NCBI RefSeq assembly: GCF_025909975.1
Contig: NZ_JAPCIO010000001.1
Span: 310,001 to 374,000, forward strand
Direction: 5' to 3'
Length of the DNA stretch: 64,000 nucleotides
DNA from: Flavobacterium lacisediminis
Lineage (GTDB): Bacteria; Bacteroidota; Bacteroidia; Flavobacteriales; Flavobacteriaceae
The position numbers and the translations under genes were made by a program. How positions within the stretch are numbered: position 1 is the stretch's first letter; the number at the start of each line of letters is the position of its first letter. The notes below the pieces were generated by a model that saw nothing but the letters and a program-made list of their open reading frames with translations, made no database searches and was not told the DNA's origin. This document shows positions 386 through 15,169 of this stretch, piece by piece.

Positions 386-2227
386 TTATTTAATAATTTT
401 ATCAGAAACAAACAATCCTTTTTTTGCTAATTTTTTGTTTTCCAGATAAATTCCTACTTTATATTCTTCATTATTTAAATTACTAATTTCAAAATCTGCT
501 TTAAAACCAGAGTTGTCAGCGTTAAAATCGCATTTGAAATAACTTGTAACATCAGGCCTGTTTATAGATTGAATTGGAATTAGTTTTACTCTATCAATTT
601 GGGTATTGTTGTTTATTAGTACTAAATATAACTTTGTTTCTTCAGATGAAATATTGTTAAAATATGCCCATCCAGAAACCGAAAGTAAATTGTCTTTAAT
701 ATCAAAAATTTCAATGTTATTCATAAATGAATCTCCACTGTAAGTAGATTTTATATCTAATCCACTAAGATTTATAAATTGAGGAGTTTCTTTAGTTAGT
801 ACAAAATGCTTCGCCCACCCTTGAAATCCATCAAAAGATTCATCAATTACAAAGTTTTTGTTTATAAATTCTAAAGATTTATCGCTTGGTTGATAAACTT
901 TTCCAAATGCATCTAAATACCAAAAAGATTGAATCTTTGATGAATCGTTAATCATTTCGTTTATTAACGTTTCAAATTCTTTTTCAACTACCGGATTTTG
1001 TTCTGACTTATTAAAATAATAATCAAACCAATACTTTTGACTAGTATATACTTCGTGTTTTCTAGAGTTGTTTTCAATAACTGTATTTGAAGCTTCTCTA
1101 AATTGTGCTTTATTTGGTGAATCATAATATTTTTTTTCTAATACCAAATTAATTAGTGAAAAAATAATAATTAAAACTATTGCGAGATGTTTCAGGAATT
1201 TATTTTTTATTTCATTTATACCCCATGCAATAAATATATAAATTACTGGAATAACACTTGTAAAGTATCTAGTTAGTATTAGTGAAACTTCCCCGTATGA
1301 TTTAACAAGTAAAAATAGCACAAAAACAACTCCCCAAAATAGTAAAAATGTGAATGCTAATAGTTTATTATTATTTGAAACATTTCCTTTTAGTTTAAAT
1401 AAATTAAACAATAGGAATTGAAATACTACCAAATACAAAAACAATAAAAATTCTGAGTTTCCGAAAACTTCTTTAATCATTATTGTAAAAGAATCTTGTG
1501 TTGGTTTTGGTACCCAAAATTCTCCTTTTCCAAAAAGTAATATAAATTTTTGAATGTTTGGCAAAAATATTAGAATTGTAATTATCCCAATTATAAAAAA
1601 CTGTTTTAATATATCTTTTGAGATTTTTTGTTTTGTTTGATAAAAATAAAAAAGGATAAAAATAAACTGACTAAAAAGATTTATAAATCCAAAAAAATTA
1701 ATGTTTAATAATAAACCTGCCGATAATCCGTAAAAAACTGCATTTTTTAAACTTTTGTCATTTAAAAAACACCATAGCCTATAATAAACAAAAATAGTTA
1801 CTGCTAAATATAAAGAATATGGTCTAGCTTCTTGAGAAATATATATGTGATAATGACTTAAGCAAAACAATAAAGAGACTATTAATGCGGTATTTTTATT
1901 AATAATTTTTTTTGTTAATATATAAATTAAATATATTGAAATAATACCTCCAAAAACCGAAAAAAGTCTTGCAATAATAGAATTAAACCCAAATAAAGCA
2001 TGAAATATTTTTAATAAAATAAAATATAAATAGGGAAAACCATCTCTATTATTTACCTCATCAATTACTGTCGAAAATGAATTTTCTGGATTTGAAATAT
2101 TCATTGTATAAATTTCATCCATCCATAAACTCTGATAATCAATTTTGTATAATCTTAAAAAAATTGCAACAAATAATATTGATATTATCCATTTGTTGTT
2201 TAATAATTGATTAATAATTTTTTTCAT
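386..2227 (-). CDS. GT39/ArnT-like integral membrane glycosyltransferase
   Basis: A 613-residue protein with many hydrophobic helices over about the first 380 residues, followed by a soluble C-terminal domain of about 230 residues. The motif SLWMDEIYT near residues 33-41 (Asp37-Glu38) is the first-loop acidic motif of the GT39/PMT/ArnT superfamily, whose members transfer a sugar from a polyprenyl-phosphate carrier on the outer face of the cytoplasmic membrane. Last gene of a five-gene operon: its start overlaps the wecE-like stop by 4 bp. The aminotransferase, formyltransferase and ArnC-like enzyme upstream suggest it uses an undecaprenyl-phosphate-linked amino sugar. The donor is inferred and the acceptor (lipid A, glycan or protein) is unknown. 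Confidence 0.8.
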   Translation of the reverse strand: MKKIINQLLNNKWIISILFVAIFLRLYKIDYQSLWMDEIYTMNISNPENSFSTVIDEVNNRDGFPYLYFILLKIFHALFGFNSIIARLFSVFGGIISIYLIYILTKKIINKNTALIVSLLFCLSHYHIYISQEARPYSLYLAVTIFVYYRLWCFLNDKSLKNAVFYGLSAGLLLNINFFGFINLFSQFIFILFYFYQTKQKISKDILKQFFIIGIITILIFLPNIQKFILLFGKGEFWVPKPTQDSFTIMIKEVFGNSEFLLFLYLVVFQFLLFNLFKLKGNVSNNNKLLAFTFLLFWGVVFVLFLLVKSYGEVSLILTRYFTSVIPVIYIFIAWGINEIKNKFLKHLAIVLIIIFSLINLVLEKKYYDSPNKAQFREASNTVIENNSRKHEVYTSQKYWFDYYFNKSEQNPVVEKEFETLINEMINDSSKIQSFWYLDAFGKVYQPSDKSLEFINKNFVIDESFDGFQGWAKHFVLTKETPQFINLSGLDIKSTYSGDSFMNNIEIFDIKDNLLSVSGWAYFNNISSEETKLYLVLINNNTQIDRVKLIPIQSINRPDVTSYFKCDFNADNSGFKADFEISNLNNEEYKVGIYLENKKLAKKGLFVSDKIIK

Positions 2228-3351
2228 TTGATATTTAATAATTGATTAATAACAGTTTGTATATCTAACTCATAAAACAATGGTAATCTTAACAGTGTAT
2301 TTGTAAAAACATCCGTATTTGGTAGTACTCTATTATCATGTTTATCTAAATAAAAAGGACTTGAATGTAGACTAATATAATGAAAAACAGGGTGAGTGTC
2401 TTTTGATTTTAGTTTATTAATTATATGCGTTCTCTGTTCAATACTTTTGCATTTTAAAAAAAACATATGTGCATTATTTGTTGCATAACTTGGAATTTGA
2501 GGTAATTCAATTTCATTTTCCTTTGCCCAATCTGCTAATTTTAAATAATACTCTCTCCAAAGCTGATTTCTAACTTTTTGAATGTTTTCTAAATTTTCTA
2601 ATTGTGCCCATAAAAATGCAGCTACAATTTCTGACGGCAAAAATGAACTTCCAATATCTACCCAACCATATTTATCTACTTCACCTCTGAAAAAAGAAGA
2701 ACGATTGGTTCCTTTCTCCCAAATAATTTCAGCTCTATTGATAAATTGTTTATCATTAATAACTAACATTCCGCCTTCTCCGGAAATAATATTCTTGGTT
2801 TCATGGAATGAAAACGCTGCTAAATGTCCTATAGAACCTAAGGCTTTTTTTGTGCCATCTTTTCCTGTAAAATAACTATCAATAGCTTGAGCTGCGTCTT
2901 CAACCACAAATAAATCATACTTTCTTGCTAAATCCATAATCACATCCATATCACAAGCTACTCCGGCATAATGAACGGGAACAATTGCTTTTGTTTTGGA
3001 TGTAATTAAAGCCTCTATTTTAGTCGCATCCATATTTGGATGATTCATCATGCTATCGGCAAATACGATTTTGGCTCCTCTAAGTACAAATGCATTTGCG
3101 GTAGATACAAAAGTGTAAGATGGCATGATTACCTCATCTCCTTCTTTTATATTAATCAAAATCGCAGCCATTTCTAACGCATCGGTACATGAAGTGGTTA
3201 ACAAAGCTTTTTTGAAGCCATAATTAGACTCGAAAAACTGTTGACATTTTTGTGTAAAAATTCCGTTACCAGAAATCTTGCCCGATTTTACAGCTTCTTC
3301 TATATATTGTGTTTCTTTGCCCGTTAAATAAGGTTTGTTAAATGGTATCAT
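2224..3351 (-). CDS. wecE: dTDP-4-amino-4,6-dideoxygalactose transaminase
   Basis: A PLP-dependent sugar aminotransferase of the DegT/DnrJ/EryC1 family, 375 residues, the length typical of WecE/RffA. The Schiff-base lysine is Lys186 in SFHETKNIISGEGG, and the HETKN form is characteristic of WecE. The EDAAQ motif (151-155) holds the Asp that contacts the PLP nitrogen. WecE converts dTDP-4-keto-6-deoxyglucose to dTDP-Fuc4N with glutamate as amino donor. Its substrate can be made by rfbA and rfbB about 8 kb upstream. It overlaps the formyltransferase gene by 14 bp and the GT39 gene by 4 bp, so translational coupling is likely. Family assignment is strong; the stereochemistry of the product is inferred from WecE-type features. 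Confidence 0.88.
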   Translation of the reverse strand: MIPFNKPYLTGKETQYIEEAVKSGKISGNGIFTQKCQQFFESNYGFKKALLTTSCTDALEMAAILINIKEGDEVIMPSYTFVSTANAFVLRGAKIVFADSMMNHPNMDATKIEALITSKTKAIVPVHYAGVACDMDVIMDLARKYDLFVVEDAAQAIDSYFTGKDGTKKALGSIGHLAAFSFHETKNIISGEGGMLVINDKQFINRAEIIWEKGTNRSSFFRGEVDKYGWVDIGSSFLPSEIVAAFLWAQLENLENIQKVRNQLWREYYLKLADWAKENEIELPQIPSYATNNAHMFFLKCKSIEQRTHIINKLKSKDTHPVFHYISLHSSPFYLDKHDNRVLPNTDVFTNTLLRLPLFYELDIQTVINQLLNIK

Positions 3352-4024
3352 GTTCTTTTTTTAATTTAACCCAAAAATTTTCTTCAAAATCTAAATTAGA
3401 AACTGGAAGTCTCGGAGAAAATATTATCTCTTTATCATTAATAATTACTCTTTCTGTACCTTCTTTTTTTATTTCTATTTTAGTACAGATTCCACCTAAA
3501 ATTGCTAAACAAGATGTTTTAAAAACAGTATCTATAATTTCTTTGTCGTTATTCCAATCCACTGCAAAACAACCTTGATGAATGATTTTACCTGCATCTA
3601 CAATTTCGTTTACTTCATGACAGGTGCCGCCAATAAAACCAACATTTTGTTCTTTCGCTTTTTCAACTGTTTCCATTCCTATAAAACCTGCAAAACTTGG
3701 TAATAACGAATAATGCAAATTAATGAATTTTGAAGGAAACATATTAAGTGTATCACTATCAATTATTTTATGGATGTTTGTAATGATAACATCTGGTTTT
3801 AATTGATTCAATTCGTTTTGTAGTTCTTTGGGTTCTGATCTTTTATATGCAACTTGATTATAATAAATATTATTTTTATTAGCGAATTTTTCGAGATTTG
3901 TTACTCTGTCAGCAATAATCCCTACAATTTGAATTGGAAGTTGTAGCTTTTCAATCGCGAAAAAAATAAATTTTAAGGTTCCACCTCCGCCTGATACCAA
4001 AAAAACTATTTTCTTTTTATTCAT
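3338..4024 (-). CDS. PurN-like formyltransferase, probably acting on an amino sugar
   Basis: A 228-residue protein with the glycinamide-ribotide-formyltransferase fold. It has an N-terminal SGGGGT loop (11-16) and keeps the three catalytic residues of the PurN/Fmt superfamily: Asn102 and His104 in INLHYSLLPS, and Asp143 in IVDAGKI. The family uses N10-formyltetrahydrofolate to formylate an amine. It overlaps the GT2 gene upstream and wecE downstream and is larger and more divergent than housekeeping PurN. From context I infer it formylates the 4-amino group of the dTDP sugar made by WecE, much as the ArnA N-domain formylates UDP-Ara4N. A second PurN or another amine substrate cannot be excluded. 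Confidence 0.72.
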   Translation of the reverse strand: MNKKKIVFLVSGGGGTLKFIFFAIEKLQLPIQIVGIIADRVTNLEKFANKNNIYYNQVAYKRSEPKELQNELNQLKPDVIITNIHKIIDSDTLNMFPSKFINLHYSLLPSFAGFIGMETVEKAKEQNVGFIGGTCHEVNEIVDAGKIIHQGCFAVDWNNDKEIIDTVFKTSCLAILGGICTKIEIKKEGTERVIINDKEIIFSPRLPVSNLDFEENFWVKLKKEHDTI

Positions 4025-4943
4025 ATATTTTTTTTATTATAGCATTTGGTCTGCCCTGTACTTGTTTAAAAATTTTAAAAATATAAATACCTATTAATCC
4101 TAAAAAGGTAGAGATAATTCCTAAAATTAAAACATTAATAGCTACAATTGATGTCCAACCCAATTGTACTTCATCTTGATAAATTAATTTTTGAAAAGCT
4201 AAATATATTAAAAATAGGAAGCTAAAGAAAGAAATTGAAATACCAATATAAAATAACCATTCTAGTGGTTTTCCAGAAAAAGAAGTAATAGCTTGTAACA
4301 TTAATTCGGCTCTTCTTTTTAAGGTGTAAGTGCTAGCGCCCTGTCTTAAACCTTTTTTTACTGCAATTCCTTTTTGATTAAAACCTACCCAATAAAACAT
4401 ACCACCAATAAATAAATTAGCGTCTTGTAAACGTAATAACTCGTTTACATATTGCCTTGTCATTAATCTTTCGGTAAGAATATTGTGTGGAATTTTTGTG
4501 TCTGATAATTTATTAATTAAAATCCAAAAAATACTTCCTGCTTTTTTTTCAATAAAACTCCCTTTTCTTGTTTCTTGATAACCATAGACAACATCTAAAG
4601 TATTGTCGTTTATTATTTCATTATAATATTCAACTAAAACGCTTGGTGGTGTTTCTAAATCATTGTCAATTAAAAAAATATATTGCCCTGAAGCATAATT
4701 TAATCCCGCTTGTATTGCATAGTGATGTCCAAAATTTCTAGATAAATCTAAAATTTTTATTTGAGGAATATCACTTTTTCTTTCTAACAAATATTCTACA
4801 GAATCATCTGGTGAGCCATCATTAACAAAAACTAATTCAAAATCCGTGATTTTAATTATTTGTATACTGGCAATAATTTCCTTTAGAAAAGTTTCTAAAA
4901 AAGGTTTTGATTTATATAATGTTGTAACTACTGATAAAGTCAT
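4017..4943 (-). CDS. ArnC/GtrB-type polyprenyl-phosphate glycosyltransferase (GT2)
   Basis: 308 residues: an N-terminal GT-A domain with NDGSPDD (41-47) and a DND metal site (93-95), then two predicted transmembrane helices near 229-250 and 266-290. This architecture is shared by dolichol-phosphate-mannose synthase, GtrB and ArnC, which move a nucleotide-linked sugar onto a polyprenyl phosphate at the inner face of the membrane. Its start overlaps the ATP-grasp stop by 4 bp and its end overlaps the formyltransferase by 8 bp. Placement beside a formyltransferase and a GT39 enzyme favours an ArnC-like role with a formamido sugar. Substrate is inferred. Confidence 0.8.
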   Translation of the reverse strand: MTLSVVTTLYKSKPFLETFLKEIIASIQIIKITDFELVFVNDGSPDDSVEYLLERKSDIPQIKILDLSRNFGHHYAIQAGLNYASGQYIFLIDNDLETPPSVLVEYYNEIINDNTLDVVYGYQETRKGSFIEKKAGSIFWILINKLSDTKIPHNILTERLMTRQYVNELLRLQDANLFIGGMFYWVGFNQKGIAVKKGLRQGASTYTLKRRAELMLQAITSFSGKPLEWLFYIGISISFFSFLFLIYLAFQKLIYQDEVQLGWTSIVAINVLILGIISTFLGLIGIYIFKIFKQVQGRPNAIIKKIYE

Positions 4944-6052
4944 AATAATTCAATTCTTTTGTTGTCTTGATAAATTAAATACCCCGACCTATCGTTACTA
5001 TTTGTAATGTTTTTTAATTCTAAATTTTGAATGTCTTTTTGAAAATCAAAATCATTTTTTTGGTTAAAAAAAGGCAATAATTTTTCTGTTTCTTTGCATA
5101 AAAAATAAACCCCTGCACATTTACTTTTTGTACAAACAGGTTGTTGAAATTGATTTAAGGCAACATCAATAACTCCTTTCAAAAAATCATATCCCGTAGT
5201 TAATTCGACTAAATGAGAGCCTATAAAATCTCCACCCATTCTAGCGCCAACCTCAATAACAAAAACTTCGCCTTTAGGTGTAATTTTAAATTCGGAATGA
5301 CTTGCCCCATATTTTATTTCTAATGCATTTAAACATTTTATGGTTTCCTTTTTTATTTTTTCTTGAATTTCAAGTGATAATTGAGTGGGTTGATGATGAG
5401 CAAGTTCTACAAAATGAGGTACTTCTGTTGTTATTTTATCAGTTATAGTTAAAATCGTATGTTCGCCTTCCCAGGATATAGTTTCTACACTAACCTCTAC
5501 TCCTTCAATATACTCCTCAATAATTACTTTTTTTGAAAAAGACTCTTTAATAGCCTCTAGAGTTGCATTTTCGAGCTCTTTAAAGTTATTTACTTTTGAA
5601 ACACCTCTACTCCCCGAACGATCAACAGGCTTAACTATTAAAGGAAAGTCAAATTTAGTGTAATCGATTTCTGATGTTGAAGTTTCAATAAAATTAGGTG
5701 TATTACAACTATTTCTTTTAAAAGCATTTCTCATTTCAAACTTATTAGTTGAAATAATTGAAGAACTATACGAATTAGAAATCAAATTCAATGATTGCGC
5801 AACATAACATACTGTTGGTACTACCATATCTGTAGCAATAGTTGTAATGCCGTTAATTTTTATTTCTTCGCATTTTGCCAAAATTAAATCTTTATCTAAA
5901 ACAGATATAGGATAAAAAAAATCAGCAAAATCTTTACAAACAGCTCCTTCTAACCAAGAAAAGCAATGTGTTTCCACCCCCATTTGTTTTGCTTTTAAAA
6001 CAATGGGAAGCTGCAAATAACTCGCTCCTATGATGGCTAATTTCTTTTTCAC
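4940..6052 (-). CDS. ATP-grasp enzyme of the carbamoyl-phosphate-synthase-like group
   Basis: 370 residues. An N-terminal Rossmann-like pre-ATP-grasp domain starts KKLAIIGAS. The central ATP-grasp has the glycine-rich loop KPVDRSGSRG (141-150), IEEYIEGVEVSVE, and a C-terminal metal-binding VIEVGARMGGD segment. Such enzymes join a carboxylate (via acyl phosphate) to an amine or other nucleophile. First gene of a five-gene overlapping operon. It may couple an amino or other acid to the 4-amino sugar or supply a modified precursor. The exact substrates cannot be read from the sequence. Confidence 0.75.
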   Translation of the reverse strand: MKKKLAIIGASYLQLPIVLKAKQMGVETHCFSWLEGAVCKDFADFFYPISVLDKDLILAKCEEIKINGITTIATDMVVPTVCYVAQSLNLISNSYSSSIISTNKFEMRNAFKRNSCNTPNFIETSTSEIDYTKFDFPLIVKPVDRSGSRGVSKVNNFKELENATLEAIKESFSKKVIIEEYIEGVEVSVETISWEGEHTILTITDKITTEVPHFVELAHHQPTQLSLEIQEKIKKETIKCLNALEIKYGASHSEFKITPKGEVFVIEVGARMGGDFIGSHLVELTTGYDFLKGVIDVALNQFQQPVCTKSKCAGVYFLCKETEKLLPFFNQKNDFDFQKDIQNLELKNITNSNDRSGYLIYQDNKRIELL

Positions 6053-6184
6053 TAAAACTTAAATCTATTATTTTTTTTCTATAAATATAAAACTAATCCT
6101 ATTACTTAACTAAAGGTAAATTGATTTCTAAAAAACAATATTACAATTATAAAAACTAATACTTAAGCTAAACTTATGCGATCT

Positions 6185-6192
6185 CAAATTTA
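6185..6192 (-). promoter_or_regulatory. Possible -7 box upstream of the ATP-grasp operon
   Basis: On the minus strand this reads TAAATTTG, fitting TAnnTTTG. It lies in the 261-bp gap before the ATP-grasp gene, the largest gap in the polysaccharide locus, so a promoter is expected about here. A TTTTG run lies about 23 bp upstream, slightly wider than the usual -33/-7 spacing. The rest of the 6053-6313 gap shows nothing else I can name. Confidence 0.3.
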
Positions 6193-6313
6193 CATATCTA
6201 TATAAAATAATTCTACAAAAAACAGCAATAAATGTAATAAATGGTTGAATAAAAAATGAATCTCCATATTTGAAAATCCTACTTGTAAATTATTTTGCTA
6301 ATCGTTTAATCTA

Positions 6314-7285
6314 TTAGTCTTTATAAAAATTTACTTTTATTTCATTTTCAATAAAATTTAGATATTGCTTAATATTTGGTCCACTTATATGCTTCCTAGA
6401 ACTCAATTGTAATAACAGAACAACCAAGGTTACAGAAAACAATTGTAAAATAATGCCCAAAATAATCAATGTCAAACTTGATGCCCAACCAGGAATCGCA
6501 TTATCGGTAAATAATTTTTGGTATAATATATATAAAACAGAAATAGTACAAATGCCTATTCCATACAATGAATATCTAAGAATACGAATAGATAAAAAAT
6601 CAAAATAAACCGAAATTGAACTTAATCCGTAAACTATTAAACTATTAAAATTCATTTTAGAAACGCCCATATAACGTTTTCCTCTATCAAGTAATACTTT
6701 TTCAAATGGTATTTTAGATTGAATGATACCGCCCGAATAATGGTTCCAAATGTTATTTTGATGTACTACTTTTGAAAGTAATCTTTTTGGAATAACACTA
6801 AAATTTCCAAAACTTATCTTTTGTCCTGTTAAGAAGTAAAACAAATATTTATAAAAGAAATAACCAATCTTAAAATAAGTAGATTCTTGACGTTTTTTAC
6901 GTTGAGCAAAAATGATTTTCTTTTCTTTTTCTAGCTCTGCTTTGTTGATTAATTCCTTAATGTCTTTTGGTTTATCTTCTCCATCACTATCCATTACCAC
7001 AACAAAATCATAATCAGAAATTTCATTGTAAATATATTGTAAACCAACAGCAATAGCTCTTTGGTGACCAATGTTAATTTTTAAATTTAAAACGGTAGTA
7101 GGTATATTCTTGAAATCAAAATCTTCTGGAATTTCTTCAGTAGAACCATCATTTACTGCTACTACAAAAAAATTATAATCATTTAAGTTGTCTCTTAAAT
7201 GACTAATTTCTTGAATCAAAACAACAAAGCTTTCCCAGTCGTTATAAACGGGAGTTAAGCAATAGATGTTTTTCTTTTGATTCAT
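6314..7285 (-). CDS. GT2 glycosyltransferase with C-terminal membrane anchor (GtrB-like)
   Basis: 323 residues. The N-terminal GT-A domain has VNDGS and the metal-binding D-S-D of VVVMDSDGED. Two predicted membrane helices follow at about 230-255 and 268-293. It is a second polyprenyl-phosphate-sugar synthase-like protein in the locus, but distinct in sequence from the one at 4017-4943. It lies 2 bp downstream of the GIN-domain lipoprotein gene and ends the long rfb-linked transcription unit. Probable role: transfer of a nucleotide sugar to undecaprenyl phosphate for surface glycan decoration. Substrate unknown. Confidence 0.78.
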   Translation of the reverse strand: MNQKKNIYCLTPVYNDWESFVVLIQEISHLRDNLNDYNFFVVAVNDGSTEEIPEDFDFKNIPTTVLNLKINIGHQRAIAVGLQYIYNEISDYDFVVVMDSDGEDKPKDIKELINKAELEKEKKIIFAQRKKRQESTYFKIGYFFYKYLFYFLTGQKISFGNFSVIPKRLLSKVVHQNNIWNHYSGGIIQSKIPFEKVLLDRGKRYMGVSKMNFNSLIVYGLSSISVYFDFLSIRILRYSLYGIGICTISVLYILYQKLFTDNAIPGWASSLTLIILGIILQLFSVTLVVLLLQLSSRKHISGPNIKQYLNFIENEIKVNFYKD

Positions 7286-7287
7286 GT

Positions 7288-8058
7288 TTAAAAAATTACT
7301 CTTCCTCTGTAAACCTCTTCTACATCAACAATCGGTGGTACGTTTTTTAAAATAACATTTCCTGTTGCAAAAATAGTTCCTTCTATTTTTTGAACAGGGT
7401 AGACAAACATGTCGTTTGAACCTCTATGATATAATTTTATATTTTCAACTTGTAAGTTTTCTCCATAAAACCGTCCATCTCCGAAATAAAAATTTAATAA
7501 CATTTCTGTACAATTTCCATTAATATAAAAATTGGAAACATTATTGCTTTCAATAACTAACTGCCCGTTATCTACAGCTATTTGAAAATCAGCTGTTCCT
7601 GCCCCATCACCATCATCTCCAATTGAGAACAAACGAATAATTGGTGAGTGCAATATCCCATCGGATTTAATTTTTTGTTCGGTTTTACAATGCAATTCTA
7701 GTTCTTGAATTAAAGGCAGGTTAGTTCCATCTGGAATAGTAACATAAACCGTTGTTTGTCCGTAATCTCTAGCAATATTACAAGAAGAATTATCTTTAAT
7801 TACCAGCATATTTCCTTCTAGCTTAACATCTAAGTTGTCAATGATATTTTCCGATGTTTTAATTTTAACCTCGTAATTTGATCCTTCTTTAACAACTAAG
7901 CCTACACCATCATAAACTTTTATTTTGGAGAAATTCTCTAAAGGAAATGTTTGGGTTACTTGATTTCCATTTCCTTTAAAACAATCTTCGGAAATACCAC
8001 AACTCATTACCAAAATTAGGCAACACAAAGTAACTATATGTAAAATAATTTTTCTCAT
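7288..8058 (-). CDS. Head-GIN domain (DUF2807) lipoprotein
   Basis: 256 residues. Signal peptide with lipobox VMSC (Cys20), so a predicted lipoprotein. The mature part starts GNQVTQTFPLENFSKIKVYDGV-like, the typical opening of head-GIN/DUF2807 proteins, which form a right-handed beta-structure rich in short beta strands. Family function is not established; some are described as putative adhesin heads. Cysteines at SCNIARD and in the HCKTEQ region could form disulfides. It lies between the PagL-like gene (1-bp gap) and a GtrB-like gene (2-bp gap), so it is co-transcribed with envelope genes. A second, non-lipidated member lies at 27275-27943. Confidence 0.8.
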   Translation of the reverse strand: MRKIILHIVTLCCLILVMSCGISEDCFKGNGNQVTQTFPLENFSKIKVYDGVGLVVKEGSNYEVKIKTSENIIDNLDVKLEGNMLVIKDNSSCNIARDYGQTTVYVTIPDGTNLPLIQELELHCKTEQKIKSDGILHSPIIRLFSIGDDGDGAGTADFQIAVDNGQLVIESNNVSNFYINGNCTEMLLNFYFGDGRFYGENLQVENIKLYHRGSNDMFVYPVQKIEGTIFATGNVILKNVPPIVDVEEVYRGRVIF

Positions 8059-8059
8059 C

Positions 8060-9157
8060 TTATAATCGTACTCCTATTGTAGCTTCTATAGCTTCAGCTC
8101 TTCCGCCATGGGTTTTTAATCCAACACCGGTAAATAAATTTTTATAAAGATAATATTTTATCCCAACTCTTTGATAGATATCAATTTCATAATCAAATGG
8201 CTTATAAACATAATAACCAAGTTGTGTTTCAATAGAAAGTTTATTTATGAATAATTCATGCCCAACAAACAATCCAACTCTTTTGTAATCAGTATCAGGG
8301 TCTGTATAAGATTCATGTCCGGGAGGAAAAGCCACCGAAACAAACTCTATATAATCTTTTAAATATCGGGAAAAGAAAACATCAGTTCCTAATTGTAAAG
8401 CACTCTTTCGTCCAATTCTTTTATCGGCATATAAACCAATATGATAAAATTGACGTTGTCCTAAATTTGGAACTGGACCTTCAGAAATACCTGTTCTAAA
8501 TGCAATGTTATATTTAATTCGTTCTTTATAAGTTGTAGATGCTGGTAAAGAATCCTTAATATATTCTTGCTTTTCACCTAAATTATAGTTCAACCCAACG
8601 TTTAAGGCAAAAGTATTAATTCCGCTATTTGGTGCTTTAAATCTTCCGTTTGAAAAATGCGTTAGCATAAATCCTGCTTGAAAACCAATTCGATTAATAA
8701 GATTTTCTTTTTTATACTGTAACATAAAGTAGTTGTTATCCATTACTTTAGTTCCAAAAGCATTGTTTTTATTATTGGTTTCTTTATCATAAGGACTTGA
8801 TGTCATACCAATACCTTGTGAAATTCGAAACATTAAATTTCGATTGAAAAAGTAAAAATTATAGTGTAATCCTAGGGCAACATTATACCCTAGATATTGA
8901 TTATTAAAATCTAAATAATGAAATGAAATACCATAATCGGGATAATTATAAACTTGTTCCCATTCTTTTTTTCCAAAAGTTTTCCAGTTGTAACTTAGTA
9001 AAAATCCGTCTGGATGATCTGAAATCAAATGCCCAACATCTTCGGTATGTTTTATAATATTTCCTCTAAAAAGTTGAACATCAAAATATCCAGATGATTT
9101 CTCCTGAGAAAAAGATAATGAGATTGAAAAACAGATAAAAAGTAGGGCTCTTTTCAT
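8060..9157 (-). CDS. PagL-like lipid A deacylase / acyloxyacyl hydrolase family outer-membrane protein
   Basis: I start it at the ATG at 9157, which shares one base with the rfbD stop (TAATG) and gives a clean signal peptide MKRALLFICFSISLSFSQ. An upstream in-frame start would lie inside rfbD. The mature protein looks like an outer-membrane beta-barrel. The segment LTHFSNGRFKAPNSGIN resembles the PagL active-site strand with its His-x-Ser pair and NxG turn. PagL removes the 3-O acyl chain of lipid A in the outer membrane. At 365 residues it is about twice as long as proteobacterial PagL, so it has extra strands or domains. Enzymatic activity is inferred from the motif. Confidence 0.7.
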   Translation of the reverse strand: MKRALLFICFSISLSFSQEKSSGYFDVQLFRGNIIKHTEDVGHLISDHPDGFLLSYNWKTFGKKEWEQVYNYPDYGISFHYLDFNNQYLGYNVALGLHYNFYFFNRNLMFRISQGIGMTSSPYDKETNNKNNAFGTKVMDNNYFMLQYKKENLINRIGFQAGFMLTHFSNGRFKAPNSGINTFALNVGLNYNLGEKQEYIKDSLPASTTYKERIKYNIAFRTGISEGPVPNLGQRQFYHIGLYADKRIGRKSALQLGTDVFFSRYLKDYIEFVSVAFPPGHESYTDPDTDYKRVGLFVGHELFINKLSIETQLGYYVYKPFDYEIDIYQRVGIKYYLYKNLFTGVGLKTHGGRAEAIEATIGVRL

Positions 9158-10017
9158 TAGTTTAATTGGTTTAAACTTTCTTTTAAACTTTCTTTCCAAT
9201 CCTTAATTAAAACACCAAAAACCTTTTTAATCTTCGTTTTGTCTAAAACACTATATGCCGGTCTTTTAGCAGGCGTTGGATAGGCTTCTGTTGGAATTGG
9301 ATTTAAATGTATGGAAATTTTACTCTGATGGAATATTTCATTAGCAAAATCGTACCAAGAGCAAACACCTTCATTTGAAAAGTTGTAGGTTCCAAAATGT
9401 GATATTTGGATCTCATCTTTAGTTATAATATTTAGCAAAACATCTGCTAAATCAACAGCGTTTGTAGGTGTTCCTATTTGGTCGTTTACAACAGATAAGT
9501 TATCTCGTTCCGAAGCCAAACGTAACATCGTTTTCATGAAATTATTTGCAAATTGGGAATACACCCAAGAAGTTCTTACAATGAAATGTTTTTCCCAATT
9601 CTTTTGAATAGCAATTTCTCCATCTAATTTGGTTTGTCCATAAACACTTTGTGGATTTGGAATATCTGACTCTAAATAAGGTGTTTTTGAAGTTCCATCA
9701 AAAATAAAATCTGTAGAAATATGAACTAAAATAGTATCAAATTCTTTACAAATCTTAGCTAAATTTTCTGGCCCAATAGCATTAATTAATTGCGCTTTTT
9801 CTGCTTCGCTTTCTGCTTTATCAACTGCGGTATAAGCTGCGGTATTGATACAAAATTGAGGTTTATATTTTGAAAAAACGGTTTGACAACTTTCAAGATT
9901 CGTAATATCCATTTCTTGAAAATCGGTATACACAAACTGAATATTTGGATGTTTATCCGCAATAAATTGAATGGATTGTCCTAACTGACCATTGGCGCCT
10001 GTAACTAATACTACCAT
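9157..10017 (-). CDS. rfbD: dTDP-4-dehydrorhamnose reductase
   Basis: 286 residues, normal for RmlD/RfbD. NAD(P)H-binding loop GANGQLGQ (7-14), STDFIFDG (101-108), and the SDR catalytic Tyr126-xxx-Lys130 in VYGQTK. It reduces dTDP-4-keto-L-rhamnose to dTDP-L-rhamnose in the cytoplasm, the last step of that pathway. Start overlaps the rfbC stop by 7 bp. Confidence 0.95.
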   Translation of the reverse strand: MVVLVTGANGQLGQSIQFIADKHPNIQFVYTDFQEMDITNLESCQTVFSKYKPQFCINTAAYTAVDKAESEAEKAQLINAIGPENLAKICKEFDTILVHISTDFIFDGTSKTPYLESDIPNPQSVYGQTKLDGEIAIQKNWEKHFIVRTSWVYSQFANNFMKTMLRLASERDNLSVVNDQIGTPTNAVDLADVLLNIITKDEIQISHFGTYNFSNEGVCSWYDFANEIFHQSKISIHLNPIPTEAYPTPAKRPAYSVLDKTKIKKVFGVLIKDWKESLKESLNQLN

Positions 10018-10562
10018 ACTTTCTTAGCGTTTTGAAGATAAGGTAATATTTGATCTTTTTCAGAAATTATCAATTCATCCAAAGGAAAATTCCAGTCAAT
10101 GTTAAGAGTTGAGTCGTTATAAATTAATCCGCCTTCGCTTTCCTTATTGTAAAAATTATCACATTTGTAAAAGAATGTTGCCGTTTCTGAAAGTACTAAA
10201 AATCCGTGTGCGAAACCTCTTGGTACAAAAAATTGGGTTTGATTTTCACCTGAAAGTAAAACCGCTTCATATTGACCATATGTTTCTGATTCGGGACGTA
10301 AATCAACCGCCACATCTAAAACTTCACCTTGTAAAACACGAACCAATTTGGCTTGAGCATGTTCGCCACATTGATAATGCAATCCTCTTAAAACTCCTTT
10401 AGTGGAAAACGATTGGTTATCCTGAACAAAAGTCACTTTTTGACCCACGCCTTCTTGAAAAGTTTTTTCATTGAAACTTTCCATGAAGTAACCGCGTTCG
10501 TCTTTGAATATTTTTGGTTCAAGGATAAAACATCCTTTAAGTTTGGTTTCTATGAAATTCAT
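10011..10562 (-). CDS. rfbC: dTDP-4-dehydrorhamnose 3,5-epimerase
   Basis: 183 residues with the RmlC cupin fold. DERGYF (21-26) and the catalytic base His62 in GVLRGLHYQ are present, and the downstream FVPRGFAHGF motif is typical. It epimerises dTDP-4-keto-6-deoxyglucose at C3 and C5. It overlaps rfbD by 7 bp and follows rfbA after a 43-bp gap that contains a small palindrome (10577-10595). Confidence 0.95.
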   Translation of the reverse strand: MNFIETKLKGCFILEPKIFKDERGYFMESFNEKTFQEGVGQKVTFVQDNQSFSTKGVLRGLHYQCGEHAQAKLVRVLQGEVLDVAVDLRPESETYGQYEAVLLSGENQTQFFVPRGFAHGFLVLSETATFFYKCDNFYNKESEGGLIYNDSTLNIDWNFPLDELIISEKDQILPYLQNAKKVW

Positions 10563-10576
10563 TATGTATAAAAAAT

Positions 10577-10595
10577 TGCTCAGACAAGCTCAGCA
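10577..10595. repeat. REP-like palindrome between rfbA and rfbC
   Basis: The minus strand reads TGCTGAGCTTGTCTGAGCA, an imperfect palindrome in the only real gap of the rfb cluster. Its TGCTGA end resembles the palindromes at 31887-31907 and 32297-32330. It could be a member of a dispersed intergenic repeat family or simply form a hairpin in the mRNA. Confidence 0.45.
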
Positions 10596-10605
10596 TAACA
10601 ATTAG

Positions 10606-11463
10606 TTAAATTAAACTCATCAAGTGCTTTCCGTAACCACTTTTGAGTAATGGTTCTGCTAATGCTTTTAATTGATTTGCATCAATAAATCCCATTCGGT
10701 AAGCTGCTTCTTCAATAGCACCAATTTTTAAACCTTGGCGTTCTTCAATTACCTCAACGAATTGACCTGCTTGCATTAACGATTGGAAAGTTCCTGTATC
10801 TAACCAAGCAGTTCCCCTATCTAAAATACTTACTTGAAGTTTACCTCTATTTAAATATTCTTTGTTCACATCGGTGATTTCTAATTCACCACGGTGACTT
10901 GGTTTTATATTAGCGGCAATATCTAAAACATCGTTATCGTAGAAATAAATTCCTGGTACTGCGTAATTAGATTTTGGTTGTTCTGGTTTTTCTTCTATAG
11001 ATAATACTTTTCCAGCGGCATCAAAATCAACTACACCGTATCTTTCTGGATCATGAACGTGATAGGCATAAATAATTCCACCTTCTGGGTTATTATTCGC
11101 TTGAAGTAATTCAGCTAAACCCGTTCCGTAGAAAATATTATCACCTAAAATCAAAGCTACTTTATCGTTTCCTACAAATTCTCTTCCAATAATAAAAGCT
11201 TCCGCTAATCCGTTTGGATGTTCTTGAACTGCATATTCAAATCGACAGCCTAATTTACTTCCATCGCCTAATAATTGACGAAATAAAGGTAAATCATGAG
11301 GTGTTGAAATGATTAATATTTCACTGATTCCTGCCCACATCAAAGTTGATAATGGATAGTAAATCATTGGTTTGTCATAAATAGGCATTAATTGTTTGCT
11401 GACCGCTAATGTTAACGGATGCAAACGTGTACCTGAACCTCCAGCTAATATAATTCCTTTCAT
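10606..11463 (-). CDS. rfbA: Glucose-1-phosphate thymidylyltransferase
   Basis: 285 residues, typical of RmlA. The nucleotide-binding signature [11 protein letters not shown] starts at residue 8, and [12 protein letters not shown] and the EEKP segment are present. It makes dTDP-glucose from dTTP and glucose-1-phosphate, feeding both the rhamnose branch (rfbC, rfbD) and, through RfbB, the WecE branch. It starts on the last base of the rfbB stop. Confidence 0.96.
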
Positions 11464-12476
11464 TAGTTGTTATATTTTTGTAAATACCATTCGATGGTTT
11501 TCTTAATTCCTGATTCAAAATTCTCATCAGCTTTCCAACCTAATTCATTTTCGATTTTTGAAGCATCAATAGCATAGCGTAAATCGTGACCCGGTCTATC
11601 TTTTACAAACGTAATTTGATCTTGATATTTTCCTTCAGATTTTGGTTGTAATTCATTCAAAATCGAACAAACGGTATCTACAATATATAAATTATTACGC
11701 TCATTTCTTCCGCCAATATTATAGGTTTCACCAGCTTTTCCAGTTTTGAAGGCTAATTCAATTCCTTTACAATGATCTAAAACATACAACCAATCACGCA
11801 CGTTTTTACCATCTCCATAAATAGGAATGTTTTCTCCTGAAATTGCCTTACGAATGATAGTTGGAATCAACTTTTCATCATGCTGTTTTGGTCCGTAATT
11901 ATTCGAACAATTAGTGGTAACCACATTCATTCCGTACGTATGAAAATAACTTCTTACAATCATATCGGAACCTGCTTTTGAAGCTGAATATGGACTATTT
12001 GGTGCATAAGGTGTGGTTTCTTCAAACAAACCCGATTCGCCCAATGTTCCATAAACTTCATCAGTAGAAACATGGTGAAAACGCGAATTTTCAAATCCTG
12101 CATTATATTGATTAGGTGCTAACATCCAAAGTTTTCTTGCGGTATCTAATAAATTAAATGTTCCTAAAACATTGGTTTTAATAAAGGCTTCTGGACCAGA
12201 AATTGAATTATCTACATGACTTTCGGCAGCAAAATGAATAACATCGTGAAACTGAAATTTTTGAAATAGTGCTTCTATAAAGCTTCTATCACAAATATCG
12301 CCTTGAACAAACGTATATCTTGGGTGGTTTTCCACTTCTTTTACATTATCAAGATTACCTGCATAGGTAAGTAAATCTAAATTTACTAAATGGTATTCTG
12401 AATTATTTTCAATAAAATAGGGAACAAAATTAGCTCCTATAAATCCGGCACCGCCAGTTATTAATATGTTTTTCAT
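11463..12476 (-). CDS. rfbB: dTDP-glucose 4,6-dehydratase
   Basis: 337 residues. NAD-binding GGAGFIG (8-14), active-site Asp139-Glu140 in STDEVYG, and Tyr163-xxx-Lys167 in YSASK, all as in RmlB. Product is dTDP-4-keto-6-deoxyglucose, the branch point for rhamnose and 4-amino sugars. It follows the Wzz-like gene with a one-base overlap. Confidence 0.96.
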
Positions 12477-13471
12477 TATGACTTTATTCTTGATAATTGT
12501 TTTTTATAAAGCGAAATAAAACTAAAAAATCCTAAGTAAATAAATACAAAAAGAAAGGGTAAAATTAACTTCATTTTATTATTAAACCCCTTATTGTTTA
12601 CAAAATTAGAAGTTACACTAATATCTTTAATAAAAATTTTAATGTTTTCAAGTGTTATTTTTTGATCCGATATTTCATTAATCAAATTATTTTTTAATGA
12701 AAAAAGAGCGTTTAATTCATTATTTTCATTATTGTAAATTAAATTTGAATCTGATTTTTCTTTAGCAATATTTTTAGAAATTTGAGAAATTAAATTATCC
12801 ACTTGAAGAATTTGTTCTTCATTTTTCTTCATTTTAATGATAATATTTTCTTTTGTTATTGATAATAATTTATTCAAATATTGATCAGAATTCAAATAAT
12901 TTAATATTGGTTTAATTATTACATTTTCTTTAACCTTATTTAAAGTTACAATAGTAATTTTATGATGAGGATAATTTTTACTAGTAATTTCATTTTTTAT
13001 AACATCATTAATATCATCATTTTCGGCTAATAATTTCATAAGCTCAAAATTTTGAGTGTTTTGAGCATTCTCTGCAATTGCAGTATTTGTATTAACAAAG
13101 GTGTAAATATCAATTATAGGATTAATTGAAATATCAATTATATTGTCCTTATTTGAAATCCCTATCGAATTAAAGAAGTCTTTATCGTTTTCTTTTAATT
13201 TTGATTTTATTAAATCGACTTTTGCATACAAATAATCCACACCTCCTAAGTTTGGAGAAACTATTATTTCTGATGTATATTTTTTTGAGTTTTTATCTAT
13301 TAAAAAACCTAAAATGATTCCCAAAACAAATAAACAACTAATAATTACTATTTTCTTCCTAACAAAAAATATAAAATCAAAAATAGAATTTATAATTCCA
13401 TTAAAAAAGTTTTTAATTCCAGTTCCGATTTGTCCTAAATCGATTTCTTGATCTTGAGAATTTGTACTCAT
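12476..13471 (-). CDS. Wzz/polysaccharide co-polymerase-like chain-length protein
   Basis: 331 residues with two transmembrane segments, near residues 43-61 and 307-326, bracketing a large periplasmic domain rich in Asn, Lys and Ile with coiled-coil-like stretches. The segment after the first helix (YTSEIIVSPNLGG) matches the strand that follows the first helix in Wzz-domain proteins. Wzz proteins set glycan chain length by interacting with the Wzy polymerase. The coding sequence is more AT-rich than rfbA or rfbB. It heads the rfb group and is followed on the minus strand by rfbB. No wzx or wzy gene is visible here. Confidence 0.72.
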   Translation of the reverse strand: MSTNSQDQEIDLGQIGTGIKNFFNGIINSIFDFIFFVRKKIVIISCLFVLGIILGFLIDKNSKKYTSEIIVSPNLGGVDYLYAKVDLIKSKLKENDKDFFNSIGISNKDNIIDISINPIIDIYTFVNTNTAIAENAQNTQNFELMKLLAENDDINDVIKNEITSKNYPHHKITIVTLNKVKENVIIKPILNYLNSDQYLNKLLSITKENIIIKMKKNEEQILQVDNLISQISKNIAKEKSDSNLIYNNENNELNALFSLKNNLINEISDQKITLENIKIFIKDISVTSNFVNNKGFNNKMKLILPFLFVFIYLGFFSFISLYKKQLSRIKS

Positions 13472-13477
13472 TTAAAC

Positions 13478-15169
13478 TTATTTTACGTTAAAAATTTGTT
13501 CTAATATTTTAATTGTAATTAAATACGTAGGTTTAACCCCAGTGGTTCCTAACCCACCAGAAGCCAATGTACTTCCTGTTTCTAATGGATTATCAGAAGC
13601 ATAATAAGCGTATCTAACTTTTACATCTGGATTGATACTTTTTCTAATTTTTGAAGCCGATTGAATAGCTTTTTGATAATATGCGCCTTCCATTTCTAAA
13701 CCTATAGCTTGCCAAGTAGATTCATGGAAGAACTTCAACAAATCTCTATTTTGAAGCGATGTTCCTAAAACCGTAATCATAGGTCCTGCAAAAACTGGAA
13801 TATCATTTCCTTCAAACATTTCTTGTGTTAATTCATTTTCAAAAGGATAATTATCAGCCGTTCCTTCATTTACGTGTGCATTAGGAATCATTATATCTCC
13901 TTTTCCTCCCTCTAAAATTCCAGCCTTACCCATAATCGAAACCGATTCTACATTTAAGAAAATTTTATTTTTCTTTTCTTCTTTAAATGGTTTTAATAGC
14001 TCGTCAATTGTTTCAAATGCTTGCTCACCAAAAGCGTAATCCATTACAATGATTACTGGTTTTTCCTTGGTTAATTTAGCTTCAGCAAAAATGGTTTTCT
14101 TGAAATCAATTTTAGCGGTATCAAAAATTTGAACGTCGATATTGGTTCCTGATGCATCTGGTAATGAAATCATTCCTTGTTGTAACGCAAATTCTTCTAC
14201 TTTCTTGCGTAACTCTTTATTTGATGAACTACTTAAATCTTCAAATATCTGAAATTCAGGTGTGTTCTTGTATTTTTTTCCTAAAACTGGTTCTGCAAAA
14301 ATAGAATTCATTACACTATGCATATTTGCACTAATAATATGAATAGGTCTATCTAATAAATTATTTTGCTGTAAAACTTCTTTTATTGTAGTTGCCCATA
14401 TATCCCCATAAATATGGTGACCTAATCTTTCTCTTAAAATTGGACTAAACGTAATGGTTCTTTTGTTGTTATCAACAACCTCTTCAATGGCTAATTTTCC
14501 TAACCAATACACTACGTGTAAGAATCTATCTGGCGCTTCAGCTGTAGCGAAATCATCATAAATATCTTGTACTTCAGCAAAAGTTCTTCCTAATACGTTA
14601 GCAGCATGAGAAATTGCTTTTTCGCGATCTATTAAACTTAATTTTTTAGTTTGTCTTACCGCTAATTCTAATTTTTGCCAATCACGTGAAACCGAACCTT
14701 CATCATCAATTAAAACTCTATCTTTAATTTTATGTGATTCGATAAAAATAAAGGTCAAATGCGTTAAAATATCGTAAATATCCGAACGTCCACGTGTGAT
14801 TTCCACATTCATTTGTTCGTCGTCAATACGGTAACAATTTCTTCTTCTTTTTGGAGGAACAATCGCTTTAAAGTGCGAATTTGAATAGCCTTCATCAGAA
14901 GTTAAGTTAATGTAACGGCATTCTTCAATTCCAATTGGTAAACGTTCGATTACATATAAAAGTCCGTTTAATTCTACCTTTTCTTCTGCAATAGTACCGT
15001 AAATTTCTGGTCGAAGCGCTAATAAAGCTTCTCTTAAAGTTTCTCCTGAAACACCCATTGGTTTATAGAAACCTCTGTTAAATAAATGTCTCATGGTAAT
15101 GTACAGTCGCTCAATAGCTGCTGAGGACTCTTGCGCTCTAGAACGCGAAATGTTTTTAATGTCTTTCAT
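13478..15169 (-). CDS. DUF6909 family protein with nucleosidase-like C-terminal motif
   Basis: 563 residues, cytoplasmic (no signal peptide or membrane helix). I recognise it as the Bacteroidetes family called DUF6909, of unknown function. The C-terminal part has GLEMEGAYY (490-498) and YYASDNP (522-528). That spacing of an EMEG glutamate and an Ser-Asp pair is similar to purine nucleoside phosphorylase / AMP- and MTA-nucleosidase active sites. The nucleosidase link is my inference from two short motifs. It starts downstream of the CarboxypepD_reg-like gene and ends 6 bp before the Wzz-like start, but its function need not be tied to polysaccharide. Confidence 0.65.
   Translation of the reverse strand: MKDIKNISRSRAQESSAAIERLYITMRHLFNRGFYKPMGVSGETLREALLALRPEIYGTIAEEKVELNGLLYVIERLPIGIEECRYINLTSDEGYSNSHFKAIVPPKRRRNCYRIDDEQMNVEITRGRSDIYDILTHLTFIFIESHKIKDRVLIDDEGSVSRDWQKLELAVRQTKKLSLIDREKAISHAANVLGRTFAEVQDIYDDFATAEAPDRFLHVVYWLGKLAIEEVVDNNKRTITFSPILRERLGHHIYGDIWATTIKEVLQQNNLLDRPIHIISANMHSVMNSIFAEPVLGKKYKNTPEFQIFEDLSSSSNKELRKKVEEFALQQGMISLPDASGTNIDVQIFDTAKIDFKKTIFAEAKLTKEKPVIIVMDYAFGEQAFETIDELLKPFKEEKKNKIFLNVESVSIMGKAGILEGGKGDIMIPNAHVNEGTADNYPFENELTQEMFEGNDIPVFAGPMITVLGTSLQNRDLLKFFHESTWQAIGLEMEGAYYQKAIQSASKIRKSINPDVKVRYAYYASDNPLETGSTLASGGLGTTGVKPTYLITIKILEQIFNVK

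Follow-up and report, generated by a model that had tools for sequence, protein, structure and literature searches.

A Flavobacterium Operon That May Build an N-Formylaminoacyl Amino Sugar with a Candidate ATP-Grasp Ligase and a PurN-Like Formyltransferase

INTRODUCTION

Which enzyme acylates the amine of a 4-amino sugar when a single operon encodes both an ATP-grasp ligase and a formyltransferase? This question is raised by five overlapping genes at positions 386 to 6052, minus strand, of a 64-kb window (the whole stretch of DNA analyzed) that covers positions 310001 to 374000 of contig 1 in the 2.86-Mb genome of Flavobacterium lacisediminis. A preliminary description likened the operon to the Arn system and predicted a lipid-linked 4-formamido-4,6-dideoxyhexose built on deoxythymidine diphosphate (dTDP) chemistry as its product. 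Excerpts of PMC3210612 describe amino acids that are N-linked to 4-amino or 3-amino deoxysugars, often with an acyl cap, in several bacterial polysaccharides. The formamido prediction leaves the first gene of the operon idle, whereas an aminoacyl model gives it a function. We know of no enzyme class that has been assigned to the amino acid step on amino sugars.

With evenly balanced confidence, we propose that the operon serves an Arn/Gtr-like decoration of a glycan in the periplasm, the sugar donor being 4-(N-formylaminoacyl)amido-4,6-dideoxy-D-galactose. RmlA and RmlB would supply dTDP-4-keto-6-deoxyglucose, which WecE would convert to dTDP-4-amino-4,6-dideoxy-D-galactose (dTDP-Fuc4N). The ATP-grasp enzyme would convert an amino acid to the activated acyl phosphate and join it to the 4-amine of Fuc4N, and the formyltransferase would formylate the new alpha-amine with N10-formyltetrahydrofolate, shifting the PurD-then-PurN logic from phosphoribosylamine to a nucleotide sugar. 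A GT2 glycosyltransferase would then transfer the sugar to undecaprenyl phosphate (Und-P), a candidate flippase would turn the lipid-linked sugar over, and a GT-C transferase would add it to the polysaccharide specified by the surrounding locus.

RESULTS

Operon architecture and dTDP-sugar supply

All five open reading frames (ORFs) predicted earlier were found in the expected order, and their products passed the family profiles. In transcription order, sequence profiles point to a 370-residue ATP-grasp ligase with a GTG start (4940 to 6052; ATP-grasp_4, 87.2 bits, cut-off 27); a 308-residue GT2 polyprenyl-phosphate glycosyltransferase of the PgfS/ArnC type (4017 to 4943; Glycos_transf_2, 84.9 bits, cut-off 23.3); a 228-residue PurN/PurU-like formyltransferase (3338 to 4024; Formyl_trans_N, 75.3 bits, cut-off 26.1); a 375-residue WecE-type dTDP-4-keto-6-deoxyglucose 4-aminotransferase expected to yield dTDP-Fuc4N (2224 to 3351); and a 613-residue GT-C transferase resembling PMT_2/GT39 proteins (386 to 2227; PMT_2, 38.7 bits, cut-off 26.1). 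Neighboring genes overlap by 4, 8, 14, and 4 bases in this order, and the GC content of the operon is 25 to 29%.

The dTDP chemistry foreseen for the operon was borne out by above-cut-off matches. The aminotransferase scored 518.7 bits on TIGR02379 over residues 1 to 369 (cut-off 434.85) and 567.3 bits on NF008687 (cut-off 375), and it is 57% identical to Escherichia coli WecE; its score against ArnB was 211.3 bits, below the cut-off of 631. The same strand carries rmlD, rmlC, rmlA, and rmlB at 9157 to 12476, all four above their TIGR equivalog cut-offs, including the glucose-1-phosphate thymidylyltransferase gene rmlA (10606 to 11463; TIGR01207, 466.9 bits, cut-off 360.65) and the dTDP-glucose 4,6-dehydratase gene rmlB (11463 to 12476; TIGR01181, 469.1 bits, cut-off 365.1).

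A PurN/PurU-like formyltransferase

The Asn-His-Asp triad previously described as intact corresponds to N102, H104, and D143 and is identical in all six aligned sequences, including that of the window. The best solved relatives of the enzyme are PurN and PurU, with WlaRD (E value, 3.5e-4) as the sole sugar enzyme. Its top NCBIfam match was the formyltetrahydrofolate deformylase model PRK06027 (77.2 bits, cut-off 223), and it also fell below the cut-offs of the PurN model TIGR00639 (72.3 bits, cut-off 150.1) and the PurU profile (69.5 bits, cut-off 285.95). Among profiles of sugar N-formyltransferases, only ArnA matched at an E value of ≤1e-3 (31.3 bits, against a cut-off of 777 for a profile that also spans the second domain of ArnA); PRK07579, the dTDP-Qui4N formyltransferase model, gave no match. 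The structural comparison called for in the preliminary description led to the same families. The predicted model (mean predicted local distance difference test score [pLDDT], 81.5; below 50 at residues 108 to 114) aligned about equally well with PurN 2ywr (Z 19.2, 3.0 Å, 196 residues) and PurU 3lou (Z 18.9, 2.6 Å, 185 residues), followed by Fmt (Z 15.1, 2.9 Å, 173 residues), ArnA (Z 13.4, 3.1 Å, 171 residues), WbkC (Z 12.7, 2.9 Å, 174 residues), and PvdF (Z 12.7, 3.4 Å, 177 residues). VioF and WlaRD were absent among the 50 best structure matches listed, which is not evidence against likeness to them. Sequence and model thus class the enzyme as PurN/PurU-like and not of the ArnA kind, in agreement with the earlier assignment. 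In a phylogenetic tree, ArnA and a second Hymenobacter formyltransferase formed long branches and the deep nodes were weakly supported; no conclusions were drawn from it. That second, different enzyme is encoded at 13040 to 13825 of the Hymenobacter norwichensis locus (L040), about 2 kb downstream of wecE; its best NCBIfam match is PurN (56.6 bits, below the cut-off).

The same kinship could be expected of a spare PurN or PurU that works in purine or formate metabolism and is carried along with sugar genes, an explanation to which PRK06027, as the best NCBIfam match, also lends itself. We nevertheless give it very little credence, since the genome holds three Formyl_trans_N genes, namely, the operon copy, fmt (260.3 bits, cut-off 201.5), and a separate, full-length purN of 187 codons (150.0 bits, cut-off 150.1). 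In addition, the PurN loop SGNGSN is replaced by SGGGG(T/S), SGKGGT, or SGNGGT in the operon-type formyltransferases, in an alignment in which the E. coli and F. lacisediminis PurN proteins both keep GSN; from PurN structures, we take GSN to hold the phosphate of glycinamide ribonucleotide (GAR). Moreover, the gene overlaps that of the GT2 enzyme in all four Flavobacterium loci that carry it, and it overlaps wecE in the window and nearly abuts it in the other three. A housekeeping PurN identity was accordingly rejected on the grounds of the separate purN, the changed loop, and the below-cut-off score, and restriction to GAR transformylation, the outcome that would have told against the preliminary description, is unlikely for the first two of these reasons. 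We propose instead that the enzyme adds an N-formyl cap to an aminoacyl group.

A candidate aminoacyl ligase

By sequence, the best solved relative of the ATP-grasp protein is the L-amino acid ligase BL00235 (3vot; E value, 2.4e-32). The same structure was the top Foldseek match of the predicted model (5.7e-27, about 27% identity in the alignment) and superposed with a Z score of 32.1 (4.1 Å, 348 residues aligned), the next match being 4dim (Z 30.8). Further relatives by structure or sequence include RizA, BacD, PurK, PurT, carbamoyl phosphate synthetase, and biotin carboxylase. The model is fair (mean pLDDT, 77.7), with residues 209 to 218, 312 to 325, and 334 to 370 below 50 and a poor C-terminal end. 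The stretch IEVGARMGGD is identical in all seven aligned ATP-grasp proteins and resembles IEVGARIGGS of BL00235. On this basis, we propose the enzyme as an N-aminoacyl ligase for dTDP-Fuc4N.

Exchange of cap genes in related loci

Seventeen ligase loci were compared, each over a stretch of 10 to 20 kb. The order ATP-grasp, GT2, formyltransferase, and WecE recurs in F. suncheonense (L037), F. silvisoli (L038), and F. saliperosum (L039), and the arrangement is therefore not due to chance. Their GT2 proteins are 77 to 80% identical to that of the window, and the GT-C gene follows wecE in all four loci, with a methyltransferase gene intervening in L037 and L038. Judged from sequence, the formyltransferase of these four loci gives way to a NeuD/VioB acetyltransferase encoded ahead of wecE in two others. 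One of them (L048, genome G473) reads ATP-grasp, GT2, NeuD/VioB-type acetyltransferase, and WecE; its GT2 and WecE are 81% and 72% identical to those of the window, whereas the gene between them encodes a different fold. The other (L047, genome G470) reads ATP-grasp, NeuD type, WecE, and a Wzx-like protein and lacks a GT2 gene of the window type. The NeuD proteins of L047 and L048 pass TIGR03570 (169.6 and 165.5 bits, respectively; cut-off 160.8). A tree of the ATP-grasp proteins left the order among the Flavobacterium ligases mostly unresolved and gives no direction for the swap. At two further loci (L062, genome G667; L071, genome G927), the genes for another ArnC-like GT2 and, beside the ligase gene, for a NeuD-like protein with scores under the cut-off (135.7 and 134.2 bits) come before that of the ATP-grasp, which is followed by a weak PMT_2 protein in L062 (22.4 bits, cut-off 26.1) and by a counterpart without a Pfam match in L071; no wecE was found near the ligase gene in either stretch.

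In L061 (genome G552), the ATP-grasp gene overlaps wecE, which is followed by genes for a WecF-like glycosyltransferase (NF002756, 168.5 bits, cut-off 457; PF07429, 29.0 bits, cut-off 25) and a MOP-family flippase (NF007773, 373.4 bits, cut-off 273). The corresponding E. coli region reads rffC (wecD), wecE, wzxE, and wecF, the ligase standing at the place of the WecD acyltransferase. No other N-acyltransferase gene adjoins the ligase/WecE/WecF-like block. The WecF-like gene beside wecE, a member of the Fuc4NAc transferase family, also agrees with a galacto configuration of the sugar (Fuc4N, not the gluco isomer Qui4N). A separate block of L061 encodes PIG-L, hexapeptide NeuD-like, DegT, and WbqC proteins. 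Between the two blocks lies an asparagine-synthase-like amidotransferase gene (12415 to 14175), whose product may act on the same glycan as its neighbors.

A WecE-type gene is present in the cluster at all eight loci whose ligase is at least 55% identical to that of the window, a threshold picked post hoc (the window, L037, L038, L039, L047, L048, L049, and L061). The WecE proteins of the window, L047, L048, L049, L061, and Hymenobacter L040 pass TIGR02379. Over all 17 ligase loci, a DegT ORF occurs in 14, one of them short, the background frequency of DegT genes near polysaccharide genes being uncontrolled. In two of these loci, L063 and L064, the ATP-grasp belongs to a related subfamily and is accompanied by DesI-like DegT ORFs (that of L064 is short, 189 residues). 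The distant ATP-grasp proteins of L072 to L076 are 33 to 49% identical. Their gene orders are DegT, ATP-grasp, ATP-grasp in Bacteroides finegoldii (L072); ATP-grasp, sugar transferase, ATP-grasp, DegT in Parabacteroides distasonis (L073); and dehydratase, DegT, oxidoreductase, sugar transferase, ATP-grasp in Enterococcus hirae (L074). The DegT proteins of these three loci resemble DesI or PseC models below the cut-offs, the plasmid gene table being incomplete by its own description, and no NeuD relative was found in 15 kb of L073 and L074 (E value, ≤1e-8). For Providencia L075, which also has the ATP-grasp, no sugar genes are listed over the stretch. In Aureibacter (L076), the ATP-grasp follows pseB, pseC, and pseF, with an acyltransferase gene and pseI further on. 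This pseudaminic acid locus (5126 to 10794) contains no gene labeled pseH, and its ligase may set an unusual N-acyl group.

Site of formylation

Three observations fit a model in which an aminoacyl group is installed and then capped: the ligase stands at the place of WecD or PglD, it occurs together with either cap, and the formyltransferase is PurN-like. If the ligase acts on the 4-amine of Fuc4N, a formyl group is not expected on this amine in addition to the amino acid, and the cap must act on the amino acid, as PurN does after PurD has attached glycine to phosphoribosylamine. The 4-formamido prediction appears incomplete for a related reason: the 4-amine is acylated once, and the conserved ATP-grasp enzyme would then have no role. 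From the sequence comparisons, we consider the ATP-grasp enzyme likelier than the formyltransferase to acylate the 4-amine, and the formyl group was probably misplaced in the preliminary description, although the product class that it named, a lipid-linked, N-formylated 4-amino-4,6-dideoxyhexose, stands. Groups of the proposed kind are documented: excerpts of PMC3210612 list N-acetylglycyl, N-acetyl-D-alanyl, and N-[(R)-3-hydroxybutyryl]-L-alanyl on 4-amino-4,6-dideoxy-D-glucose; a citing paper (PMC10059132) mentions an N-formyl-L-alanyl group reported in the O2 lipopolysaccharide of Vibrio anguillarum; and PMC4431377 mentions, in general terms, acyl capping and linked peptide ligases, the latter in the O-antigen pathway among others. 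N-acylaminoacyl sugars also occur in the O antigens of E. coli O121 and Aeromonas.

The formyltransferase might instead act directly on the 4-amine of dTDP-Fuc4N, giving Fuc4NFo, while the ATP-grasp enzyme serves another sugar or group of the same glycan. Known sugar N-formyltransferases do target the sugar amine, and in relatives the formyltransferase gives place to an acetyltransferase of the NeuD/VioB kind; direct acetylation of a sugar amine is the usual reaction of NeuD-type enzymes. Plain formyl is also a reported substituent of 4-amino-4,6-dideoxyglucose (excerpts of PMC3210612). Together, direct acetylation by NeuD and this plain formyl group mean that the swap could reflect formyl transfer straight to the sugar with the ligase acting elsewhere, and Hymenobacter L040 indeed combines a formyltransferase with an above-cut-off WecE in the absence of the ligase. 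Nonetheless, direct formylation assigns no role to a ligase that is encoded first in the operon and accompanies WecE in all eight closer loci, it sits poorly with L061, where a WecF-like transferase gene follows those of the ligase and WecE and no further N-acyltransferase gene adjoins them, and it would call on an enzyme that is PurN/PurU-like rather than ArnA-like. We therefore rate it as rather unlikely.

Besides the plain formyl group and the habitual reaction of NeuD, several observations weigh against the aminoacyl model. The ATP-grasp fold serves many substrates, so that the top match in the PDB cannot by itself define the substrate. L049 (genome G402) keeps the ligase with neither cap gene; it reads EamA, ATP-grasp, GT2, methyltransferase, epimerase, second ATP-grasp, phosphoesterase, and WecE. 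The NeuD-like gene of L061 is about 6 kb off, beside another aminotransferase gene, and acyltransferases of their own are found in the Aureibacter locus and, as an "acyltransferase family" gene of another kind, further along the E. hirae locus. Three ligase loci (L062, L071, and L075) have no DegT gene found in the stretch. Conversely, Hymenobacter L040 and L052 (genome G613) have the formyltransferase but no ligase, with a WbqC gene in the cluster, and no DegT gene was found within 19 kb of L052. No flippase for the GT2/GT-C pathway was found in the F. lacisediminis genome by searches for EamA and GtrA. Finally, a family-wide search with the ligase (E value, ≤1e-40) returned F. lacisediminis alone (1 of 249 genomes), and most of the comparison therefore rests on few loci. 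As an observation on L049, its epimerase, PRK12767-type ATP-grasp, and metallophosphoesterase genes (10939 to 13400) lie between those of the GT2 and WecE, at the place of the cap gene.

WbqC was found in both formyltransferase loci that lack the ligase, two genes away in L040 and adjacent in L052, where the WbqC and formyltransferase genes form a pair at 9277 to 10638; chance neighbors were uncontrolled in this count. In L061, the WbqC gene is beside a DegT gene that is itself next to the NeuD-like gene. WbqC and NeuD are common genes. No solved structure matched WbqC at an E value of ≤1, and no paper on its function was apparent in a text search judged from titles and the beginnings of abstracts. 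We keep WbqC as a functional stand-in for the ligase as a lead only.

The same genes and swaps are predicted if the aminoacyl model is reversed, i.e., if a free or enzyme-bound amino acid is formylated and then ligated, or if a nonamino carboxylic acid is ligated and the formyl group goes to another amine. ATP-grasp enzymes take diverse carboxylates. However, the substrate of PurN is an aminoacyl amide, not a free amino acid, and the EVGAR motif in common with BL00235 fits, if weakly, an amino acid substrate. We regard the reversed scheme as improbable and favor ligation followed by formylation.

Lipid carrier, flippase, and acceptor

The earlier expectation of an Und-P-type GT2 and a GT39/ArnT-like GT-C enzyme agrees with the PF00535 and PMT_2 profiles and with hydropathy scans, which detected two C-terminal hydrophobic segments in the GT2 and nine in the GT-C protein. 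The best NCBIfam matches of the GT2 were PgfS (176.3 bits, cut-off 500) and then ArnC (110.2 bits, cut-off 529), both below the equivalog cut-offs. The GT2 would load the sugar on Und-P, and the GT-C enzyme would move the lipid-linked sugar to an acceptor outside the cytoplasm. Candidate flippases are suggested by related loci: an EamA gene lies directly upstream of that of the ATP-grasp in three of seven close Flavobacterium loci (L037, L039, and L049), and the EamA protein of L037 weakly resembles ArnF (39.9 bits, cut-off 99). This gene was not found in the F. lacisediminis genome in a search without a positive control; GtrA (PF04138) had no match there either, while 7 of 14 control genomes were positive. 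A MATE/Wzx-like gene lies downstream of the operon.

On the same strand past base 1 of the window (L035), polysaccharide genes continue, encoding a methyltransferase, a Wzx-like flippase, GT2 and GT4 enzymes, a Wzy_C protein, a hexapeptide acyltransferase, an epimerase, and a Bac_transf initiating transferase. The operon is thus part of a larger polysaccharide locus, and, going by position alone, the polysaccharide of this locus is probably the acceptor. A CBM60 domain (34.6 bits, cut-off 28.2) lies at the C-terminal end of the GT-C protein of F. suncheonense (L037, 11620 to 13482).

Other genes of the window were noted. A short lipoprotein-like ORF on the minus strand (1 to 343, cut by the window end) adjoins the GT-C gene; relatives with 27 to 47% identity follow the GT-C gene in L037 (two copies), L038, and L039 (two copies), and the ORF appears from these to be a conserved companion of the GT-C gene. 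Directly upstream of the operon, the minus strand encodes another GT2 (6314 to 7285), which bears a C-terminal hydrophobic segment and is weakly similar to PgfS (47.1 bits, cut-off 500). On the plus strand, 23166 to 24614 encodes a protein built of similar repeats (GHVRVYQNISGVWTQIGQDINGEAAGD...) that, going by its motif, may carry a type 9 secretion C-terminal domain.

Distribution

Close relatives of the formyltransferase, F. lacisediminis included, were found in 3 of 249 Flavobacterium genomes (E value, ≤1e-20) and 2 of 296 genomes of the phylum (≤1e-25). At ≤1e-10, 118 of 249 family genomes had matches, those outside F. lacisediminis having E values of 2.4e-16 or weaker and 27 to 38% identity. 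A pattern scan of GTDB representative contigs, which may leave out records of the F. lacisediminis genome, returned four loci (L037 to L040). Close relatives of the ligase occur in 6 of 249 Flavobacterium genomes (≤1e-40), 5 of 296 genomes of the phylum (≤1e-45), and 3 of 164 genomes in the order of G667 (≤1e-60), counts that include the query's own or center genome where applicable. Three of the six Flavobacterium genomes have the formyltransferase, two have a NeuD-type gene beside the wecE of the cluster, and one has neither. A search of the order of G613 returned G613 alone (1 of 128). No relatives of the formyltransferase were found in viral contigs. Plasmid matches occurred in 534 records, all at less than 60% identity; the 20 listed among them were at most 33% identical, and those among them with a named feature were PurN or PurU. 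Literature searches listed no paper that describes this operon type.

DISCUSSION

The proposed pathway borrows from several known systems. With Arn (ArnB, ArnC, ArnA, ArnD, ArnT, ArnE, and ArnF), which handles 4-amino-4-deoxy-L-arabinose, it shares a nucleotide-activated 4-amino sugar, an N-formylation step, a GT2 that transfers to Und-P, a GT-C transferase, and, in some relatives, an EamA-type flippase gene. Unlike Arn, which uses a UDP-pentose via ArnB, the operon uses a dTDP-hexose via WecE; its formyltransferase is PurN-like rather than ArnA type, it has an extra ATP-grasp gene, and it lies in a polysaccharide locus. ArnD had no match in the F. lacisediminis genome at an E value of ≤1e-3, an empty answer that is uninformative in the absence of a positive control. 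The Arn parallel holds as a resemblance to Arn/Gtr systems, but a plain Arn homologue was rejected, as the ArnA, ArnB, and ArnC equivalog cut-offs were all missed. In the three-component systems outlined by Kelly et al. (PMC11127046, in excerpt), a synthase for polyprenyl-phosphate sugars works together with a flippase of the SMR or MATE family and a GT-C enzyme, which sometimes bears a carbohydrate-binding domain. Such systems (GtrA/GtrB/Gtr; Citrobacter youngae ORF12 to ORF15) resemble the operon in their Und-P-type GT2 and GT-C enzymes, and the EamA genes and the CBM60 of L037 recall their flippase and the carbohydrate-binding module of the C. youngae enzyme. In contrast to these systems, the donor sugar would be built and acylated inside the operon.

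The Fuc4NAc branch of the enterobacterial common antigen (rffG, rffH, rffC/wecD, wecE, wzxE, and wecF) is similar in its rmlA/rmlB-type supply and in WecE; it differs in that the operon has an ATP-grasp and a formyltransferase but no WecD, and GT2 and GT-C enzymes replace WecF. With PurD and PurN, the operon would have in common an ATP-grasp amide ligase followed by a formyltransferase acting on the amine of the amide, with the Asn-His-Asp triad kept. The proposed acceptor is, however, a nucleotide sugar, the ligase is nearest to L-amino acid ligases and not to PurD, and the GSN loop is lost. BL00235 itself matches the ligase in fold and EVGAR motif, but the second substrate proposed here is a sugar amine instead of an amino acid.

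Extending the proposal beyond the window, we suggest, at somewhat short of an even chance, that this ATP-grasp family comprises the missing amino-sugar N-aminoacyl ligases. They would replace WecD-, PglD-, and PseH-type acetyltransferases in surface-glycan loci and act with interchangeable caps, either a PurN-like formyltransferase or a NeuD-like acetyltransferase, to yield N-acyl-aminoacyl sugars; in the operon, the PurD/PurN pair would be redone on a nucleotide sugar, and WbqC may fill the role of the ligase in Hymenobacter and G613. The operon and its relatives thereby name candidates for the amino acid step, namely, an ATP-grasp ligase and two interchangeable caps. This candidate class could explain amino-acid-bearing sugars in other bacteria, and a pair of reactions from the purine pathway may have found new use in diversifying the surfaces of bacteria.

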